Below are positions 1 through 8,240 of a stretch of 8,364 nt of DNA, piece by piece (the first letter of the stretch is position 1; each line of letters begins with the position of its first letter). Where the stretch lies: the NCBI GenBank assembly GCA_023130215.1, contig JAGMAN010000014.1, positions 1-8,364 on the forward strand. The letters run 5' to 3'. The notes beneath the pieces were generated by a model. The model was not told the DNA's origin and searched no databases. It worked only from the letters and a program-made list of their open reading frames with translations. The DNA comes from a bacterium. GTDB lineage: Bacteria; NPL-UPA2; JAGMAN01. The position numbers and the translations under genes are program-made.

Positions 1-361
1 ACGATAAGCTCTGTCGGACCATAGTGACTATTTCTTTCTCCTGAAATGGCTTCTGGACACACCCGTAGACTCCGGCATCCATGGCCTCTTTCACTTTCCG
101 CCCGCCGGGAGCCGAAGTGATGAGGATTATCTTCATCCCGGGATTCTTATCCTTAATAGTCCGGTAGAAATCTTCCTGCTCACTGGATGCCAGTCTATCC
201 AGCTCAAGGAAGAGCAGGTCATAATCCTTCTGATCCAGAAGCTGGAAGAGCTGGTCAACATTTTCCGAGAACTCTATGGAATGCTGGTTGCTCTCCATTA
301 TCTTGAGAGGGAACATGTCCTTCGTTTCTCCTCCAGCCACGATTAGAATCCTTCCTGCCAC
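1..361 (-). CDS. Receiver-like (CheY-fold) domain protein, partial, runs off the left edge
   Basis: Translation from the GTG at 361-359 gives 120 residues with no stop before base 1, so the C-terminus lies outside the window. The start is chosen because AAGGAGG stands five bases upstream. The chain has the response-regulator receiver pattern: beta-1 RILIVAGG (4-11), beta-3 YDLLFLEL (47-54), beta-4 KIILITSA (77-84) with Thr82, and beta-5 ending in Gln-Lys-Pro-Phe with Lys104. Oddities: the acidic pair after beta-1 is replaced by Ala-Gly-Gly, and the usual phospho-acceptor Asp is Glu53. Thr82 and Lys104 are kept. Glu at this position can mimic the phosphorylated state in some receivers, so the domain may be locked or work without phosphorylation (inference). 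No output domain is seen, but one could follow outside the window. It lies directly downstream of a sigma-54 promoter and the EBP gene, so it is a likely target of that activator. Confidence 0.85.
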   Translation of the reverse strand, partial: MAGRILIVAGGETKDMFPLKIMESNQHSIEFSENVDQLFQLLDQKDYDLLFLELDRLASSEQEDFYRTIKDKNPGMKIILITSAPGGRKVKEAMDAGVYGCVQKPFQEKEIVTMVRQSLS

Positions 362-437
362 ACCATCCTCCTTGGCCTCCCCTTTAACTTCTCCCTTTGA
401 GAGGAGCTGGCCGTGATGTTCATCTGTGTTTATGTAA

Positions 438-453
438 TGCAAATCCTGTGCCA
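438..453 (-). promoter_or_regulatory. Sigma-54 (RpoN) -24/-12 promoter of the receiver-like gene
   Basis: Read on the minus strand the sequence is TGGCACAGGATTTGCA. It matches the sigma-54 consensus TGGCAC-N5-TTGCA exactly, including the GG and GC doublets at the required spacing. Transcription would begin near base 427, giving a leader of about 66 bases before the GTG at 361. No sigma-70 promoter is obvious in this gap. It sits immediately beyond the terminator of the EBP gene, which fits independent, activator-dependent control of the downstream gene. The match is seen directly; activity is inferred. Confidence 0.82.
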
Positions 454-460
454 GGCAAAT

Positions 461-490
461 AAAAAAGCCACTTAGGATACCTAAGTGGCT
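461..490 (-). terminator. Intrinsic terminator of the sigma-54 activator gene
   Basis: Arms 466-476 and 480-490 are perfectly complementary over 11 bp (AGCCACTTAGG / CCTAAGTGGCT) around a three-base loop. On the minus strand the hairpin is followed by a run of six T (plus-strand A at 461-466; the innermost base is shared with the stem). There is no T-run on the other side, so it works only leftward. It ends the EBP transcript about 130 bases past the stop codon and insulates the sigma-54 promoter next to it. Confidence 0.9.
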
Positions 491-617
491 AATTTGCAAT
501 GAGTAAGGCTACTGCGGCCTCTAAAGCCGATTAAGGCTCAAGGAGCAATAAGTGTTGAATTTTCAACCCGAGAGAGCTTTCCATCTCTTTAACTATATTT
601 CTTTTAAGAGCTTATGA
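491..617 (-). other. Non-coding 3' region of the activator transcript, with short hairpins
   Basis: No gene is seen between the EBP stop codon and its terminator. The stretch holds a direct repeat TAAGGCT (504-510 and 532-538), a 4-bp CGGC/GCCG stem (515-518 with 526-529), a 5-bp AGAGA/TCTCT stem, and the dyad listed separately. I compared it by eye with the cyclic-di-GMP, fluoride and other common riboswitch cores and recognised none. Confidence 0.4.
554..567. promoter_or_regulatory. Dyad GTTGAA-TT-TTCAAC, candidate enhancer site for the sigma-54 activator
   Basis: Two perfect 6-bp half sites, GTTGAA and TTCAAC, are separated by TT. The centre is about 133 bp upstream of the predicted sigma-54 start site near 427. 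Enhancer-binding proteins with Fis-type HTH domains bind such dyads about 80-200 bp upstream of their promoters. A weaker dyad with the same outer bases (GTTG at 628-631, CAAC at 641-644) lies in the last codons of the EBP gene. The role is inferred from position and symmetry. Confidence 0.45.
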
Positions 618-2030
618 CTAAGACCCTGTTGTAGATTTTTCAACCCCTTTATCAAGTCCATACCTTTTAATCTTCCCGTAAAGGGTGCCCCGGTCAATTC
701 CCAGCTCCTTAGCTGTCTGATGCTTATTCCAGCGGCAATCGGCCAGGGTCTTGAGGATCAGTTCCTGTTCTATCTCCTGCAAGGTCCGTTGCTTATTAGC
801 GATGATTCCGATTCCAGTTTGTAATTTGTGGGGAAGGTCACCGGCAGTAATGGTATTGCCTTTACAGAATACAACTGCTCTCTCTACTACATTCTCCAGT
901 TCCCTGATGTTCCCCGGCCAGTTATGCTGCATCATCAGTTCCAGAGCTTCTTTAGAGAAATCATTGACCTCCTTACCTATTTTACTGGAAAAGCGACGGA
1001 GAAAGTCAGCACTTAGAAGCGGAATATCCTCTTTTCTCTCTCTCAGCGGCGGCACCTCAATGGTGATGACACTCAAACGGTAATAGAGGTCTTCACGGAA
1101 CTTCCTCTGAGCGATAGCTTCCTCTAAATTACTATTAGTAGCCGCGATGATTCTCATATCTAACTCGAGTGTCTTCTCTCCTCCCACTCTCTCAAATTTT
1201 CTCTCCTGAAGGACGCGCAGTAGCGCCAATTGGGTCATTGGGGAAAGCTCCCCTACCTCATCGAGGAAGATTGTTCCGGTATGAGCTAACTCAAACTTCC
1301 CTGGCTTCTGGCGGATAGCTCCCGTAAAGGCTCCTTTCTCATGGCCAAAGAGTTCACTCTGGAGGAGAGTCTCTGGCAGAGCAGCGCAGTTGACGACGAT
1401 GAAAGGCTTTTCCCATCGGCGGCTCTTGGAGTGAAGAGCCTGAGCTACTAACTCCTTGCCTGTCCCTGTTTCTCCCTGAATGAGCACAGTAGAATCGGTC
1501 TGGGCAGCAGCCGAGATTACATCATAGACCTCCTGCATCCTTTCAGTTCTTCCAATAAGGGTCTCCAGATCATAAGGAAGGTTAGAGCGATGTCGCAGGG
1601 AAAGTTTCTCTTTCTTCTCCTGATAGAGTTCCATGAAGTGTCTTCTTACCCGGAGCATAGCCTTGATGGTGCTCACCATCTCGTCCCGGTGGAAAGGTTC
1701 GGTGATGTAACTGTCCGCTCCGAAATTGAGGGCTTTCCTTCCTGCAGGGGCTTTATCCTCTCTGGTCAGGGCTAAGATGGGAATATACTTCAAGCGTTCA
1801 TCCGACTCAAGGCGCTCACAAATACGGTAGTCCTCAGCACTGTCTTTCTCGGCACTGAGGAGAATGAGATCCACTTCCTCCTCAGTAGCCATCATCGGTA
1901 TCCTGCCATGTGAGTCACAGGGAATTACCTGGTAGCCCAATGATTCAAGAGTCTCTTGAAGCCTTCCCCATTCCTTCAGGTCTCGGCTGGCAACCAGAAT
2001 CTTTGGCCTCTCCAGCTCGCTTTTCCTCAC
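618..2030 (-). CDS. Sigma-54-dependent transcriptional activator (NtrC family) with degenerate receiver
   Basis: A 470-residue bacterial enhancer-binding protein that remodels RNA polymerase-sigma-54 by ATP hydrolysis. Domains: receiver-like 10-130; AAA+ about 157-400 with Walker A GETGTGKE (186-193), the sigma-54 contact loop GAFTGA (233-238), Walker B IFLDE (254-258), sensor I near 293-300, arginine-finger region R312/R318 and [10 protein letters not shown] sensor II (371-380); Fis-type HTH about 415-460. All AAA+ elements look intact, so it should be a working activator. The receiver is unusual: the acidic pocket is Ser15-Arg16, the acceptor Asp is Ser59, and the conserved Lys is Glu111; only Thr89 remains. 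Normal aspartyl phosphorylation is therefore unlikely, and no histidine kinase is in view. The GTG start is supported by AAGGAG (2038-2043) seven bases upstream. It is transcribed divergently from smc and has its own terminator. The neighbouring sigma-54 promoter suggests its target. Confidence 0.95.
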
Positions 2031-2191: not shown

Positions 2192-5100
2192 TTGTATTTC
2201 AAGAGATTAGAGGTCTTTGGCTTTAAATCCTTCCCGGAGAAGACGGACTTTATCTTCGAGTCAGGAATCACCGCCATCGTTGGTCCCAATGGCTGCGGGA
2301 AGACAAACATTGCCGACGCTATTCGCTGGGCATTGGGAGAGCAGAGCGCTCTTGCCCTGAGGGGTTCCCGCATGGAGGACATCATCTTCAATGGAAGCGC
2401 TGATAGAAAACCTTTAGGAATGGCTGAGGTCTCCCTGACCATGTCTAACCCGGAGAACTTCCTTCCCCTGGAATATAGCGAGGTGACCATTACCCGTCGT
2501 ATGTTCCGCTCTGGAGAGAGCCATTACTTTATAAACCGCACCCCATGCCGCCTCAAGGACATAAGTGAACTCTTCATGGACACTGGAATCGGGACTCAGG
2601 CTTATTCCATCATTGAGCAGGGGAAGGTGGACCTCGTCTTAAGTTCAAAGCCGGATGACCGCCGTTATCTATTTGAAGAAGCCGCCGGAATCATGAAATA
2701 TAAGACCAGGAAGAAGACAGCTCTCAGAAAATTGGAGGCTACTGAGCAGAACCTCGTGCGAGCAAGCGATATCATTTCTGAAGTGAAGAGGCAGATCAAT
2801 TCTTTGAAGCGGCAGGTGAGGAAGGCAGGGCGGTATAAGGAAACTTTCGAGGAGTTAAAGGGACTGGAGATAAAATTAGCTTTGAATAGACTGAGCCGGG
2901 TAGAAGAGGAATCGGAGTCTTCTCTAAGAGAGGCAAAGAAGGCAAAAGATGAATCTGCAAAGTTTTCAGCCGGAGTAAGTGAGGGGGAAAGTAAGATTGA
3001 GGAGCTGAGAGTGGAACTTCTGGGGTTAGAGAAAGTTCTCAGTGGAAGGCAAAGGGAGAGCCAGGAAGTAAATAATAAAATCCACCAGAGTGAAAGTCAG
3101 ATCATGCTCCTTCGGGAAAGAAAGGAGGCGCTGGAGAAGGAAAAACGAAGAACCGGGGAAGAATTAGACGATCTGGAAGGGAAACTGTCTCAGATTAAGG
3201 AGGGGACAAAGAAGGCTGAATCCGATTTAGTCAGGTTAACTGAAGGGAACATTCGTAGAAGGGAGAAGGTCCAAAGCGCAGACGCATCCCTGAAGAAGCT
3301 ATCTCAAAAGATAAGAAACGAAGAATCTGAAATAAAAGAGAGCGAATCTATGGTGGTGGAGATAGCAACCCGGGAGGCAAAGGTCAGGAATGACCTGTCT
3401 GGCCTTAAGGTGACCCTTGAGAACTTGAGGAGTAGAAAGAAGCGCCTGAAGGTAGAAGAGGAGAGAGTAGGGAGTGAGAGGAAAAAGACAGAGGAAAGGT
3501 TAAGAGAACTTGAAGGAGAGTTAGAGGGCAGGAAGTCTGTCATTAGAGAAGTAGAAGAAAGCCAGAAGAAAATTCAAAATGAAGCCTCCACTCTAAACTC
3601 TAAACTCTCAGCCCTTCAGGGCAATCTTAGTTCTCGCCGGGAAGAACTGACCAGCTCTTCCTCCCGATTGAATTTCCTCCAGGACTTAAAGCAGAGATAC
3701 GAAGGTTATCAGAGCGGGGTGAAGGCAATCCTCCAGAATCAGGACAATTTTCCTGGAATTCTGGGAACGGTGGCTGACCTCATTGACCTTCCAGCCAATT
3801 TGGAGCAAGCCCTGGAAGTGGCTCTGGGAGATAAGGCGCAGGGGATTGTTGTGAGGAGAGCTCAAGATGCAGAAGAAGCCATAAGCTATCTCAAGCGCGA
3901 GAAAAAAGGAAGGGCCACATTCTTTTCCCTGAATTCAATTAAACCTCACGAGGAGCTGTCCCCGGATGCAGTTCTCAAGCAGAAGGGAGTAATCGGGATA
4001 GCTAAAGAGCTAATAAAATTTGACCCGGCCTATAAGGATGTCTTCTCCCAACTCTTGGGAAGGACAGTTGTTGTTGAGGACCTAAACGTAGCTAAGCAGA
4101 TAGCCAATGTGACTGATTCCTCTATGAACCTGGTTACGCTGGATGGGGAGCTCATCGGCAGAAGTGGTGCCCGCATCGGCGGAAGTGCCCCTAAGGGTAA
4201 GGGGGCGGGGATTCTTAGAAGGGATGCTGAGATCAGGGAACTTAAAGACGCAGTAGAGCATTTAGGGAAGACTATATCCGAAACCGAGTTGCAGTCAAAG
4301 GTAATCTCAGGGGAAATAAATAAGTTTTCTGGCGAGATAAATCTTCTTGAAGGGAAACGAAGTGCAATGCAGATGGAGAAAGCCGGTTTAGAAAGTGACC
4401 ACTCCTCAGCTAAGGTGGCCGGGGAGAGACTTTCCCGGGAGCTTTCTATAGTTCAGGGAGAGCTCAGAGAAGTGGCAGAAGATGATGAACTGAATAAGAA
4501 GGAGAGAGATGAGCTAAATAATCAGCTTGAGGAGATGGGCCAAAGAATAGAGGCGGCCCAGGAAAGGATAGCACTACTTCAGCAGTCAGTGGAGGAAGGA
4601 GGGAGGACTCGAGAGGAGCTCTCAGGAGAATTGACCGGGATAAAAGTAGAATTAGCCTCCTGGGAGGAGAAGGAGAAGGGAGAGAAAAATAACCTTAGCC
4701 GATTGGAAGAATCCCAGCAAGAATATATTGAGGCTCGCAATAGCCGCCTCTCCCGATTGAAGGAAGCTGAGAAGGGAAGAGGGGAGATAGGCCAGGGTGA
4801 AGAAGAGAGAGAAAGGAACTTGAAAGAACTTTTTGAAGAAAGAGATTCTTTCGAGGAAGACATTAGAAAACTGAATGAGGATAGAGAGAGTATTTTATCC
4901 CGGGTCAGTGAGTTGGAGAAGAAAGTTAGAGATGATAGAAGCAAGCGGGATGAGATTCAGGAGAGAATTAATGGCCTGGAAGTGCGCCAGGCCCAGCTCC
5001 GGATGGAGATGGACAATATCCGGAAGAGGATTTCCTCTGAATACCAGGTATCCCTGGATGAGCTGGAGGAGAGAAAGGTAGGGGAGCTGGATGAAGAAGT

Positions 5101-5749
5101 CACCGCCCAGGAGATTGCCAATCTCAAGGCAAGATTAGAGGTCATGGGGCCGGTGAATTTAGTGGCCATTGAGGAGAATAAAGAGTTAGAAGAGAGATAC
5201 AATTTCCTTACCAACCAGCAGGAGGACCTCCTCCAGGCCAAGGAATCCCTTCAAAAGGTGATTGCCAAGATTAATCGCACAACTCGCTCGCAATTCATGG
5301 ACACATTTACCCGGGTCAGAGGACACTTCAATGAGCTATTCCGAACCCTCTTTGGGGGAGGGAGAGCTGAACTGGTCTTGATTGATGAAGCTGATGTCCT
5401 GGAATCGGGAATCGACATCGTCGCCCAGCCTCCTGGAAAGAAGCTGCAGACCATATCCCTTCTCTCGGGTGGGGAGAGAGCCCTGACAGCCATCGCTCTT
5501 CTTTTTGCCCTGTTCAAGGTGAAACCCAGCCCCTTCTGCCTCTTAGACGAAATAGATGCTCCCCTGGACGAATCCAACATCGACCGCTTTATAAGACTGC
5601 TTCAGGAGTTTATTGGGAATTCCCAGTTCATTATCGTTACCCACAATAAGAGGACGATTGCCATGGCTAATGTTATGTATGGAGTGACCATGGAAGAATC
5701 CGGGGTGTCCAAATTGGTCACTGTCCGCTTCGCCAAGAAAACTTCGTAA
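2192..5749 (+). CDS. smc: Chromosome segregation protein SMC (bacterial condensin ATPase)
   Basis: 1185 residues, the usual length for bacterial SMC. As a homodimer with ScpA/ScpB it compacts and organises newly replicated chromosome in the nucleoid by ATP-driven loop extrusion. Order seen: N-terminal head with FGFKSF (9-14) and Walker [10 protein letters not shown] (31-39); first long coiled coil rich in Glu, Lys and Arg, about 170-515; globular hinge about 518-670 with the glycine-rich [15 protein letters not shown] stretch near its end; second coiled coil to about 1000; C-terminal head with ABC signature LLSGGE (1090-1095), Walker B CLLDE (1116-1120), D-loop APLDE and switch His1151. All catalytic motifs are intact. 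The start is TTG (see the ribosome binding site entry). rpmB follows after 23 bp with no terminator between them, so the genes are probably co-transcribed. scpA, scpB and ftsY are not in the window. The strong purine bias of the coding strand reflects the coiled-coil composition. Confidence 0.98.
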
Positions 5750-5772: not shown

Positions 5773-5961
5773 ATGTCCAGAATCTGTGCTATCTGCGGAA
5801 AAGAACCCATGACCGGCCACAATGTCAGCCACTCCCACCGTAAGACTAAGCGAAGGTGGCTGCCCAACCTTCAGCGAGTGAAGACCGTGGTAGACGGCGT
5901 CCCAAAAAGGATCAGAGTCTGCACTTCCTGCATCCGCTCCGGAAAAATTAAGAAAGTGTGA
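5773..5961 (+). CDS. rpmB: 50S ribosomal protein L28, zinc-binding four-cysteine form
   Basis: 62 residues, full length for L28, a component of the large ribosomal subunit. The start ATG has GGAGAGGAG a few bases upstream. The chain shows the L28 N-terminus with C5-x2-C8-G, the basic central [10 protein letters not shown] stretch (20-29), and a second C50-x2-C53 pair near the C-terminus. Four cysteines in two CXXC pairs mark the zinc-ribbon (C+) form; zinc-independent paralogues lack them. It lies 23 bp after smc, and its stop is followed within five bases by the next ATG, so the three genes appear translationally and transcriptionally linked. The L28 assignment is secure; zinc binding is inferred from the cysteines. 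Confidence 0.97.
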
Positions 5962-5966
5962 GGAGA

Positions 5967-7562
5967 ATGGCTGGAGAAAGGGAAGAATGGCCGGGGAGAG
6001 CCAGCTTCGTTCTGGAACTGATCGAACGAATCAAGGTTCCCTACGGGGGATATCCAGGCCATGTGCTCCTGAAGGGTGGATGGGCAGCTCTCATTTTATT
6101 AATGACTTTTGCTTTATCCTGTGCCGGGGAGAAGGCTAAAACATCTGAGGATTCTCCGAAACCAGTCGGAGAGGTGAGAAGCCCGGCTGTTAGTGGAATG
6201 TTTTATCCGGGGAATGCTTTTACTCTAAAGAATGAAGTTGATGAGTTCTTACAACGAGTTGAGAGAAAGGCTATACAGGGGAAACTCATCGCGTTAATTG
6301 CCCCTCATGCTGGCTACCGGTATTCTGGCCAGGTGGCTGCTTTCGCCTATAAGCAGCTCGAGGGCAAGAAGATTGATACTATTATCTTGATCGGCCCAAG
6401 CCACCGAACTCATTTCTCAGGGGTTTCTGTAGGTAATTACGGATATTATCAGACTCCCTTGGGCAAGGTAGCCGTGGATACGGAGTTGGCTGAGAGGATG
6501 ATGGAAGGAAGCAAACTGATAGACTTTTATCCCCCTGCCCACCAGCAAGAGCACTGTTTAGAGGTGCAGATTCCTTTTCTTCAAAGAATATTAACTAAGT
6601 TTAAGATACTTCCATTATTGACGGGAAGTTCTACCTTAGAGATTTCTCAAGAGCTAAGTCAAGTCCTCCTCAAGGAGATTAAGGGTAAGAACATCTTGCT
6701 TATTGCCAGCACTGATCTATCCCATTACTATCCTTACCAGGAAGCCTGTAGATTAGATAAGCGAACCTTGAAGGTGATAGAGGGGCTGGATGGCGAACTT
6801 CTTTACCGAGAGATGGCCTCTGGCCGAGCCGAGCTCTGTGGAGGCGCTGCGGTAGTGGCTACCCTTTTAACGGCTAAGCAGTTGGGGGCAGATAATGTGA
6901 AGATTTTAAAGTATGCTAACTCTGGGGACCGGGCACCCGAAGGGTCGGGGGACAAGTCACGGGTGGTTGGCTATGCGGCCATAGCCATTTATAAAGCCAG
7001 GGAGGGTAAAATGGAACGTGAACCACTCAATGAAACAGCTCAAAAGGAACTGCTGAGGATTGCCCGGACTTCGATAGAAAGCTATGTTAAAGAAGGCAAA
7101 ACTGCTGAGTTTGAGGTAAAGGAGCCAGTATTTCAGGAAAAGAGGGGAGTCTTCATCACTATTACTAAGGATGGTGCCCTTCGTGGCTGTATTGGACGGC
7201 ATGAATCAGATTTGCCTTTATATCAGACAGTAGCCCAGATGGCGGTATCGGCGGCCTGCCGTGACCCTCGATTTCCTCCTTTGCGAAATGAGGAACTGAG
7301 TCAGATTAAGATAAAGGTATCTGTCTATCTCATGTCTCCTACTGAGATAAAGAGCCTTGAGGAGTTTGATGTGGGGAAACATGGCATTATTGTTGAAAAG
7401 GGGCACCATTCGGCTACCTATTTACCGGAGGTGGCTACGGAGCAGGGCTGGACGAAAGAAGAGACCTTAAGCAGTCTCTGCCAGAAGGCAGGACTGCCCC
7501 CGGATGCCTGGCGGGAGGGGACAAAATTCTCCATCTATGCCACCCAGGTCTTTGGAGAATAG
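5967..7562 (+). CDS. Fused MEMO-AMMECR1 protein (AmmeMemoRadiSam proteins B and A) with lipoprotein-like signal
   Basis: 531 residues from ATG 5967. The MEMO domain (about 70-345) keeps the putative metal-site residues known from human MEMO1: His114 in APHAGY, His146 in GPSH, Asp250 and His253 in STDLSH, and Cys291. MEMO folds resemble extradiol dioxygenases; MEMO1 binds copper or iron. The AMMECR1 domain (about 350-531) has the hallmark LRGCIG (405-410). In many prokaryotes separate A and B genes accompany a radical SAM enzyme (the AmmeMemoRadiSam system, function unknown); that enzyme is not in the window. A hydrophobic segment (about 39-51) ends at Cys52 followed by a polar linker, like a lipoprotein signal, although the lipobox A-L-S-C is atypical. 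Start uncertain: ATG 5967 has GAGG only three bases upstream; GTG 5958 overlaps the rpmB stop by four bases; GTG 6063 would give a textbook 20-residue signal but has a poor ribosome binding site. Domain calls are firm, export is inferred. Confidence 0.9.
   Translation: MAGEREEWPGRASFVLELIERIKVPYGGYPGHVLLKGGWAALILLMTFALSCAGEKAKTSEDSPKPVGEVRSPAVSGMFYPGNAFTLKNEVDEFLQRVERKAIQGKLIALIAPHAGYRYSGQVAAFAYKQLEGKKIDTIILIGPSHRTHFSGVSVGNYGYYQTPLGKVAVDTELAERMMEGSKLIDFYPPAHQQEHCLEVQIPFLQRILTKFKILPLLTGSSTLEISQELSQVLLKEIKGKNILLIASTDLSHYYPYQEACRLDKRTLKVIEGLDGELLYREMASGRAELCGGAAVVATLLTAKQLGADNVKILKYANSGDRAPEGSGDKSRVVGYAAIAIYKAREGKMEREPLNETAQKELLRIARTSIESYVKEGKTAEFEVKEPVFQEKRGVFITITKDGALRGCIGRHESDLPLYQTVAQMAVSAACRDPRFPPLRNEELSQIKIKVSVYLMSPTEIKSLEEFDVGKHGIIVEKGHHSATYLPEVATEQGWTKEETLSSLCQKAGLPPDAWREGTKFSIYATQVFGE
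7000..7013 (+). promoter_or_regulatory. Internal ribosome binding site and ATG at the MEMO/AMMECR1 junction
   Basis: GGGAGGG (7000-7006) lies a few bases before an in-frame ATG at 7011, exactly where the AMMECR1 domain begins. Initiation here would yield a separate protein of 183 residues ending at 7562, about the size of free-standing AmmeMemoRadiSam protein A and without the N-terminal signal. It may be active or a relic of two genes that fused. Use is inferred. Confidence 0.45.
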
Positions 7563-7615: not shown

Positions 7616-7840
7616 TTATTTAACCATCTTAAGATATTGCGGTGTGGAAATTTTCAGAACTCTTAGGTTATTACGAATAATAAACTTGGGAACGTCTTTG
7701 TCGGTTGGGACTACTAAGGGGCGTTTAAGGTCAGCACGTTTATAAATTCGATGGTCGCCTTCCTGATGCGAAAATTCACAGCCGACGTCAAGTAGAAACC
7801 GTTCAAACTTTCTCCAATGAACTGGCCTCAGGCGGGGCAT
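7616..7840 (-). CDS. hicA: HicA-family mRNA interferase toxin
   Basis: 74 residues, a typical HicA length. HicA toxins have a double-stranded-RNA-binding-like fold and cleave mRNA, stopping growth when unbound. The family pattern is clear: an N-terminal M-P-R-L-x-P-V segment, a hydrophobic helix, a Gly20-x-x-Phe turn, the motif G28-D-H30-R-I-Y with the catalytic histidine, then a V-V-P segment and a C-terminal helix with N-L-R at 58-60. All expected parts are present, so it should be functional. Its ATG overlaps the end of hicB by 13 bp, which points to translational coupling; the nearest Shine-Dalgarno-like bases, AAGGT, lie three bases upstream inside hicB. It converges on the MEMO-AMMECR1 gene with a 53-bp gap and no clear terminator. 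The order is antitoxin first, the reverse of the classical hicAB arrangement but found in other HicBA systems. Confidence 0.88.
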   Translation of the reverse strand: MPRLRPVHWRKFERFLLDVGCEFSHQEGDHRIYKRADLKRPLVVPTDKDVPKFIIRNNLRVLKISTPQYLKMVK

Positions 7841-8133
7841 GGGACCTTAAAAGATTCTTCTGTCCGTGATATGATAACAGGAGGGACCCAGTGTAGCTTC
7901 GGGCGGGAAACCTTCTTCCAGCCACATTCGAGAAGCACACTCTCTAATGTGCCCATTTTAAATAACTCTTCAAGGAAGATTCGAACAATTTCTTCAAACC
8001 TCTTTTTGGCCTGGTCAAAGTCATCACCACATGTAGAGAGGTCTAAAGCTGGAGTATATGCTATGAACTTCTTCCCTTCCTTTAGAAAAGTAACTGGGAG
8101 ATTAACTTCGTAAGACCGCATTTTCTTTCCCAT
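7828..8133 (-). CDS. hicB: HicB-family antitoxin
   Basis: 101 residues from ATG 8133, chosen because GAGAGG lies about five bases upstream; an upstream in-frame TTG at 8172 has no such support. HicB antitoxins bind and inactivate HicA. The HicB core is visible: beta strands with FIAYTPALDLSTCGDD (23-38), equivalent to the family's YVAYCPELGxxTxGDT, then an amphipathic helix QAKKRFEEIVRIFLEEL (41-57) and a G-T-L-E-S-V-L-L-E-C-G-W segment (61-72). The C-terminal tail (about 73-101) is rich in Pro and Trp and shows no ribbon-helix-helix or HTH domain that I can recognise, so how it represses its own promoter, if it does, is unclear. It is the first gene of a two-gene operon with hicA. Assignment rests on the core pattern and the HicA partner. 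Confidence 0.85.
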   Translation of the reverse strand: MGKKMRSYEVNLPVTFLKEGKKFIAYTPALDLSTCGDDFDQAKKRFEEIVRIFLEELFKMGTLESVLLECGWKKVSRPKLHWVPPVIISRTEESFKVPCPA

Positions 8134-8240
8134 TCGAACCTCTCTAATTATTGCCCACCCTTGCCAAAGCAATAGGAACGAGCTTATCAGCCCTGCCTCG
8201 CCGAGTTGATACAGGGGATTTCAATTGCCCTTCCATTGTG

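Follow-up and report, generated by a model that had tools for sequence, protein, structure and literature searches.

The window, an 8,364-bp stretch of DNA that is the complete contig C43 of a MAG of the candidate phylum NPL-UPA2, is best explained as a whole by a two-transcript σ54 switch, a reading that we consider likely. The gene for a σ54 activator (EBP) would be read from a σ70-type promoter in the divergent region between it and smc, and its transcript would end at a terminator of its own. The EBP would bind an inverted repeat at about −138, perhaps also an imperfect copy further up, and loop onto RpoN-polymerase waiting at a −24/−12 promoter (453–438), where its AAA+/GAFTGA ring would open the promoter for transcription of a pseudo-receiver gene and any genes behind it. 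Instead of phosphorylation, the activity of the EBP would probably be set by a ligand, by a partner protein or by its own abundance. The best reading is that the module is of a kind already known, a co-localised σ54 activator and target, in the gene order typical of the phylum. What is unusual here is that the activator and its predicted target both carry degenerate receivers.

Genes and signals of the locus

The genome of the window (G000) comprises 1.01 Mb in 136 contigs with a completeness of ~90%, and its SMC protein is 79–80% identical to that of an NPL-UPA2 MAG. A published NPL-UPA2 genome is ~1 Mb, and pili are its only motility genes (PMC6305446). The open reading frame list and Pfam searches place the following genes in the window: a receiver-like gene running from 361 to beyond the left edge (2–361, minus strand), the EBP gene (2030–618, minus), smc (2192–5749, plus), rpmB (5773–5961), a Memo-AMMECR1 fusion gene (5958–7562, plus) and a hicA and hicB-like pair (7616–8172, minus). 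Searching the window against Rfam and for tRNAs gave no hits. As the window is a complete contig, the receiver gene is cut by the assembly, and comparison of the first 150 bases with other contigs gave no useful match for a leftward extension.

The EBP gene encodes an NtrC-type protein of 470 aa with a GTG start. Its degenerate receiver (about 2003–1647, from Pfam and a residue check) is followed by an AAA+ domain (Sigma54_activat, PF00158, 1559–1056, E = 2e-72) with an AAA lid and by a Fis-type HTH (PF02954, about 782–660, E = 5e-14), all on the minus strand. The GAFTGA motif is intact, as had been claimed in the original prediction, which also named a genome without rpoN as grounds against the module; rpoN was found in a single copy (PF00309 match on C23, E = 2e-15). 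A consensus scan predicts a σ70-like promoter before the EBP gene (TTGATT-16-TAGAAT, 2057–2084, minus) and another for smc at 2141–2169.

Scanning and folding identify an intrinsic terminator at 490–466 on the minus strand that ends the EBP transcript, with an 11-bp stem, a 3-nt loop and a T-run (−20 kcal/mol, z = −5.9). Just past it, a pattern search finds the −24/−12 element TGGCACAGGATTTGCA (453–438, minus), which has 0 mismatches to TGGCAC-N5-TTGCW and the correct 12-nt step between its −24 G and −12 C. The window has no other exact match, and the whole 1.01-Mb genome has only two more, one of them situated between an EBP gene and a pilin gene. With the −12 C at 439, +1 is predicted at about 427, which would give a leader of 66 nt. 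A ribosome-binding site read from the sequence (AAGGAGG, 373–367, minus) stands 5 nt before the GTG at 361 of the receiver gene, which continues for 120 codons up to the contig end (PF00072, E = 4e-12). The scan listed no σ70-like site on the minus strand from 592 to this GTG. Terminator, exact promoter and a promoter position suited to drive the receiver-like gene had all been predicted, and each is borne out by these features.

The terminator stem GCCACTTAG...CTAAGTGGC (467–489) is common to an EBP module of another genome of the same genus (G001:C72; L250:3404). Kinship of the two modules through GCCACTTAG was considered and rejected, as the alignment score is only modestly above that of other modules and the EBPs stand on different branches.

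Activators followed by −24/−12 promoters in NPL-UPA2

Searches of eight other NPL-UPA2 genomes turned up no ortholog of either the EBP or the receiver gene. The matches of the receiver gene there are weak (≤27% identity, the best in a paralogous EBP), and the window EBP forms a long, weakly placed branch in the EBP tree. A search for orthologous loci by way of smc found this gene at a contig edge in the nearest genomes (G002 C41, G001 C101) and beside neighbours different from those of the window in G003. With no ortholog in which to follow the conservation of 438–453, the layout was tested as a class.

Across nine NPL-UPA2 genomes, that of the window included, we counted sites of the form TGGCAC-R-N4-TTGC, with the reversed pattern as control, and called a site linked to an EBP when it lay on the same strand within 1.5 kb downstream of the AAA+ domain. 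The pattern occurs 52 times against 0 for the control (7 against 0 in the genome of the window). Same-strand downstream sites accompany 14 of the 32 full-length EBPs where 0.12 were expected, so that 14 of the 52 sites represent an enrichment of ~100-fold, and none of the 32 has a site upstream of it or antisense to it. The arrangement of an EBP with a downstream −24/−12 element is not chance. Only 4 of 92 EBPs in eight genomes from other families have the strict pattern downstream (Fisher p ~7e-7 against 14/32), a gap that may be due in part to a strict consensus and not to gene order. Behind the EBP-linked promoters lie, among others, a pilin gene (G000:C120), a PilZ gene (G001:C146), lpxD (G006, G008), the gene for a small Fis-like protein (G001:C72) and one for a lone receiver (G002:C46). 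Outside the phylum, the EBPs with the best scores against that of the window add two further kinds of locus with a downstream site, whose targets are uninformative.

The lone-receiver module, from a genome of the same genus, resembles the window in its EBP, exact −24/−12 element and lone receiver of ~125 aa. It differs in that both of its receivers are canonical, a kinase gene stands beside the EBP and a radical-SAM/SPASM gene comes next. Its EBP is ~42% identical to that of the window and lies on another branch or is weakly grouped.

A repeat scan of the window located the inverted repeat GTTGAATTTTCAAC (554–567), a candidate enhancer (UAS) at about −138, and an imperfect second copy matching at 15 of 17 bases lies 77 bp further upstream (630–646, direct repeat D1). 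No other site within one mismatch of GTTGAATTTTCAAC exists in the genome. Of the 14 EBP-linked modules, 10 have an inverted repeat (arms ≥6, spacer ≤8) between −185 and −105 compared with 2.5 in shuffles, and such repeats are at chance level in the neighbouring non-overlapping intervals; the −185 to −105 interval was set after the repeats had been seen, and the excess would survive correction for the six intervals tried. Their sequences vary from module to module, as expected because the EBPs differ. The distance in the window agrees with the 100–250 bp of Clostridiales enhancers (PMC6615313). We regard the repeat at 554–567 as a reasonably probable binding site of the window EBP.

The layout has counterparts in the co-localised EBP and target modules of Clostridiales (PMC6615313) and Desulfovibrio (PMC4641369), where an EBP gene lies beside the −24/−12 element of its likely single target, as here; the Clostridiales modules also share a repeat at enhancer distance (100–250 bp; PMC6615313). 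The one-component EBPs of Desulfovibrio are mostly divergent from their target operon or inside it, and one has its promoter downstream (PMC4641369), whereas in NPL-UPA2 all the linked promoters lie downstream of their EBP.

The layout also bears on the possibility that the −24/−12 promoter is real and another EBP of the cell drives the receiver operon while the target of the adjacent EBP is somewhere else. Three further EBPs, full-length or nearly so, are encoded in the genome (C24, C54, C120), and its lpxD has a −24/−12 element with no neighbouring EBP, so regulation at a distance does occur. This explanation is nonetheless unlikely, given that adjacency of EBPs and sites in the phylum is far above chance, that a unique inverted repeat lies between the EBP and the promoter, and that Clostridiales targets are mostly co-localised with their EBP, 65% of EBPs having a single target operon (PMC6615313). 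From the sequence features of the locus, we infer instead that the window EBP very probably acts on the promoter at 453–438. The proposal that the activator's target can be read from its position next to the activator gene has thus gained from the ~100-fold excess of the layout, the presence of rpoN and the candidate enhancer. For NPL-UPA2, an uncultured phylum with genomes of ~1–2 Mb, this means that gene order gives targets for close to half of the σ54 activators, and most of these modules also yield a candidate binding site.

Degenerate receivers in activator and predicted target

Alignment with the EBPs of the phylum shows that the receiver of the window EBP has S/R in place of the acidic pair, serine at the phosphoacceptor position (D57→S) and glutamate for the conserved lysine (K109→E), with the Thr kept. 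In the lone receiver the acidic pair is A/G and the phosphoacceptor is replaced (D57→E), with both Thr and Lys kept. By their residues neither the EBP receiver nor the lone receiver qualifies as a phosphorylation-controlled response regulator, and the canonical residues are present in each of the 25 other complete receiver-EBPs of the phylum that were examined. Both domains still score above the Pfam cut-off, that of the EBP at 33.0 bits for Response_reg against 30.2. No kinase gene is found beside the window EBP, unlike the EBPs at G002:C46, C54 and C24.

Because the phosphoacceptor Asp is missing in both receivers, a point overlooked in the original prediction, the switch must work differently. 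An EBP receiver with no acidic pair, Asp or Lys, together with the lack of an adjacent kinase gene, suggests that activity is probably not set by phosphorylation, and on these residues the window EBP very likely acts without it. The earlier label of a self-contained σ54 module is too strong as regards signal input.

The window EBP shares the order of receiver, AAA+ and Fis-type HTH with the NtrC-family regulators NtrC1, NtrC4 and ZraR, and among solved structures NtrC4 (4l4u) and ZraR (1ojl) are closest to it in sequence; it departs from that family in its receiver, which has no phosphoacceptor, acidic pair or Lys, and in having no adjacent kinase gene. A non-phosphorylatable receiver-like domain is a feature it has in common with FleQ-like EBPs, whose receiver-like domain has no Asp, although its similarity to FleQ is confined to the AAA+ part. 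FleQ is controlled by FleN and c-di-GMP (PMC12632262). A further match of the receiver segment of the window EBP is FrzS, a receiver known to lack the Asp. Pseudo-receivers make up several percent of the receiver family, and how they work in bacteria is for the most part unsettled (PMC12632262, PMC4395418); the module offers a natural case in which to ask how they govern an activator that needs switching on. One tentative and rather improbable scheme is that the lone pseudo-receiver, expressed from the −24/−12 promoter, binds the pseudo-receiver of the EBP and feeds back on it, in which case the receivers would be protein-protein adaptors in a phosphorylation-free circuit.

The same substitutions could mean that the EBP gene is decaying, its receiver active site lost through disuse and the promoter a relic. 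The EBP receiver keeps only the Thr of the catalytic positions where all examined relatives keep the full set, no kinase gene is adjacent and no ortholog was found in relatives. We consider decay very unlikely, since the frame is open over its full length with AAA+ motifs, GAFTGA and HTH intact, the Response_reg score of 33.0 against the 30.2-bit cut-off indicates that the fold is being kept, and both an exact promoter and good ribosome-binding sites are present. It is hardly credible that the −24/−12 match is coincidental and that the receiver gene depends on another promoter or on read-through out of the EBP gene. About one exact match is expected from base counts in a genome of this size, but the control counts (7 against 0 in the genome, 52 against 0 across the phylum), the location of the match in a short intergenic gap at a position typical of the phylum, the strong terminator opposing read-through and a minus strand with no σ70-like site listed from 592 to the GTG at 361 all speak against coincidence and a different origin of the transcript.

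Possible role of the operon and neighbouring observations

For the operon controlled by the proposed two-transcript switch, our best guess is a role in the envelope or cell surface, to which we give an even chance, because the other σ54-type sites of the genome precede pilin-like, PilZ and lpxD genes.

Sites resembling the −24/−12 element (TTGCG variant) stand before two prepilin-like genes in the genome of the window (L166:4856, G000:C116; L167:1820, G000:C16), and another such site precedes a small Fis-like gene followed by PilZ-like genes (L163:6715–6996, G000:C73). The lpxD gene has a −24/−12 element in four genomes of the phylum (L165:3720, G000:C113; L246:1706, G002:C32; L222 and L223, G006:C140 and G008:C5), and in two of these an EBP gene lies immediately upstream. 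In G003, a genome of the same order, −24/−12 elements precede groES-groEL, nifH-like and amt-glnK-like genes (L238, L239, L240), the gene names being assigned by eye.

Elsewhere in the window, at 5958–7562 (plus), Memo and AMMECR1 domains are joined in a single protein, and another Memo-like gene adjoins rpoN (L026:1348–2151, C23). At 7616–8172 (minus), a HicA toxin-like gene (PF07927) overlaps a gene that is HicB-like by eye and has no Pfam or NCBIfam match.

Two genomes encode a protein in which PilS-type six-TM, PAS and HisKA segments are fused to a σ54 AAA+ domain and HTH (L248:499–2589, G001:C5; L164:1–1098, G000:C120, the latter cut by the contig edge). With neither a kinase ATPase domain nor a receiver, the fusion resembles a one-protein PilS-PilR, and in both genomes it is followed by a −24/−12 site and then the start of a pilin-like gene.
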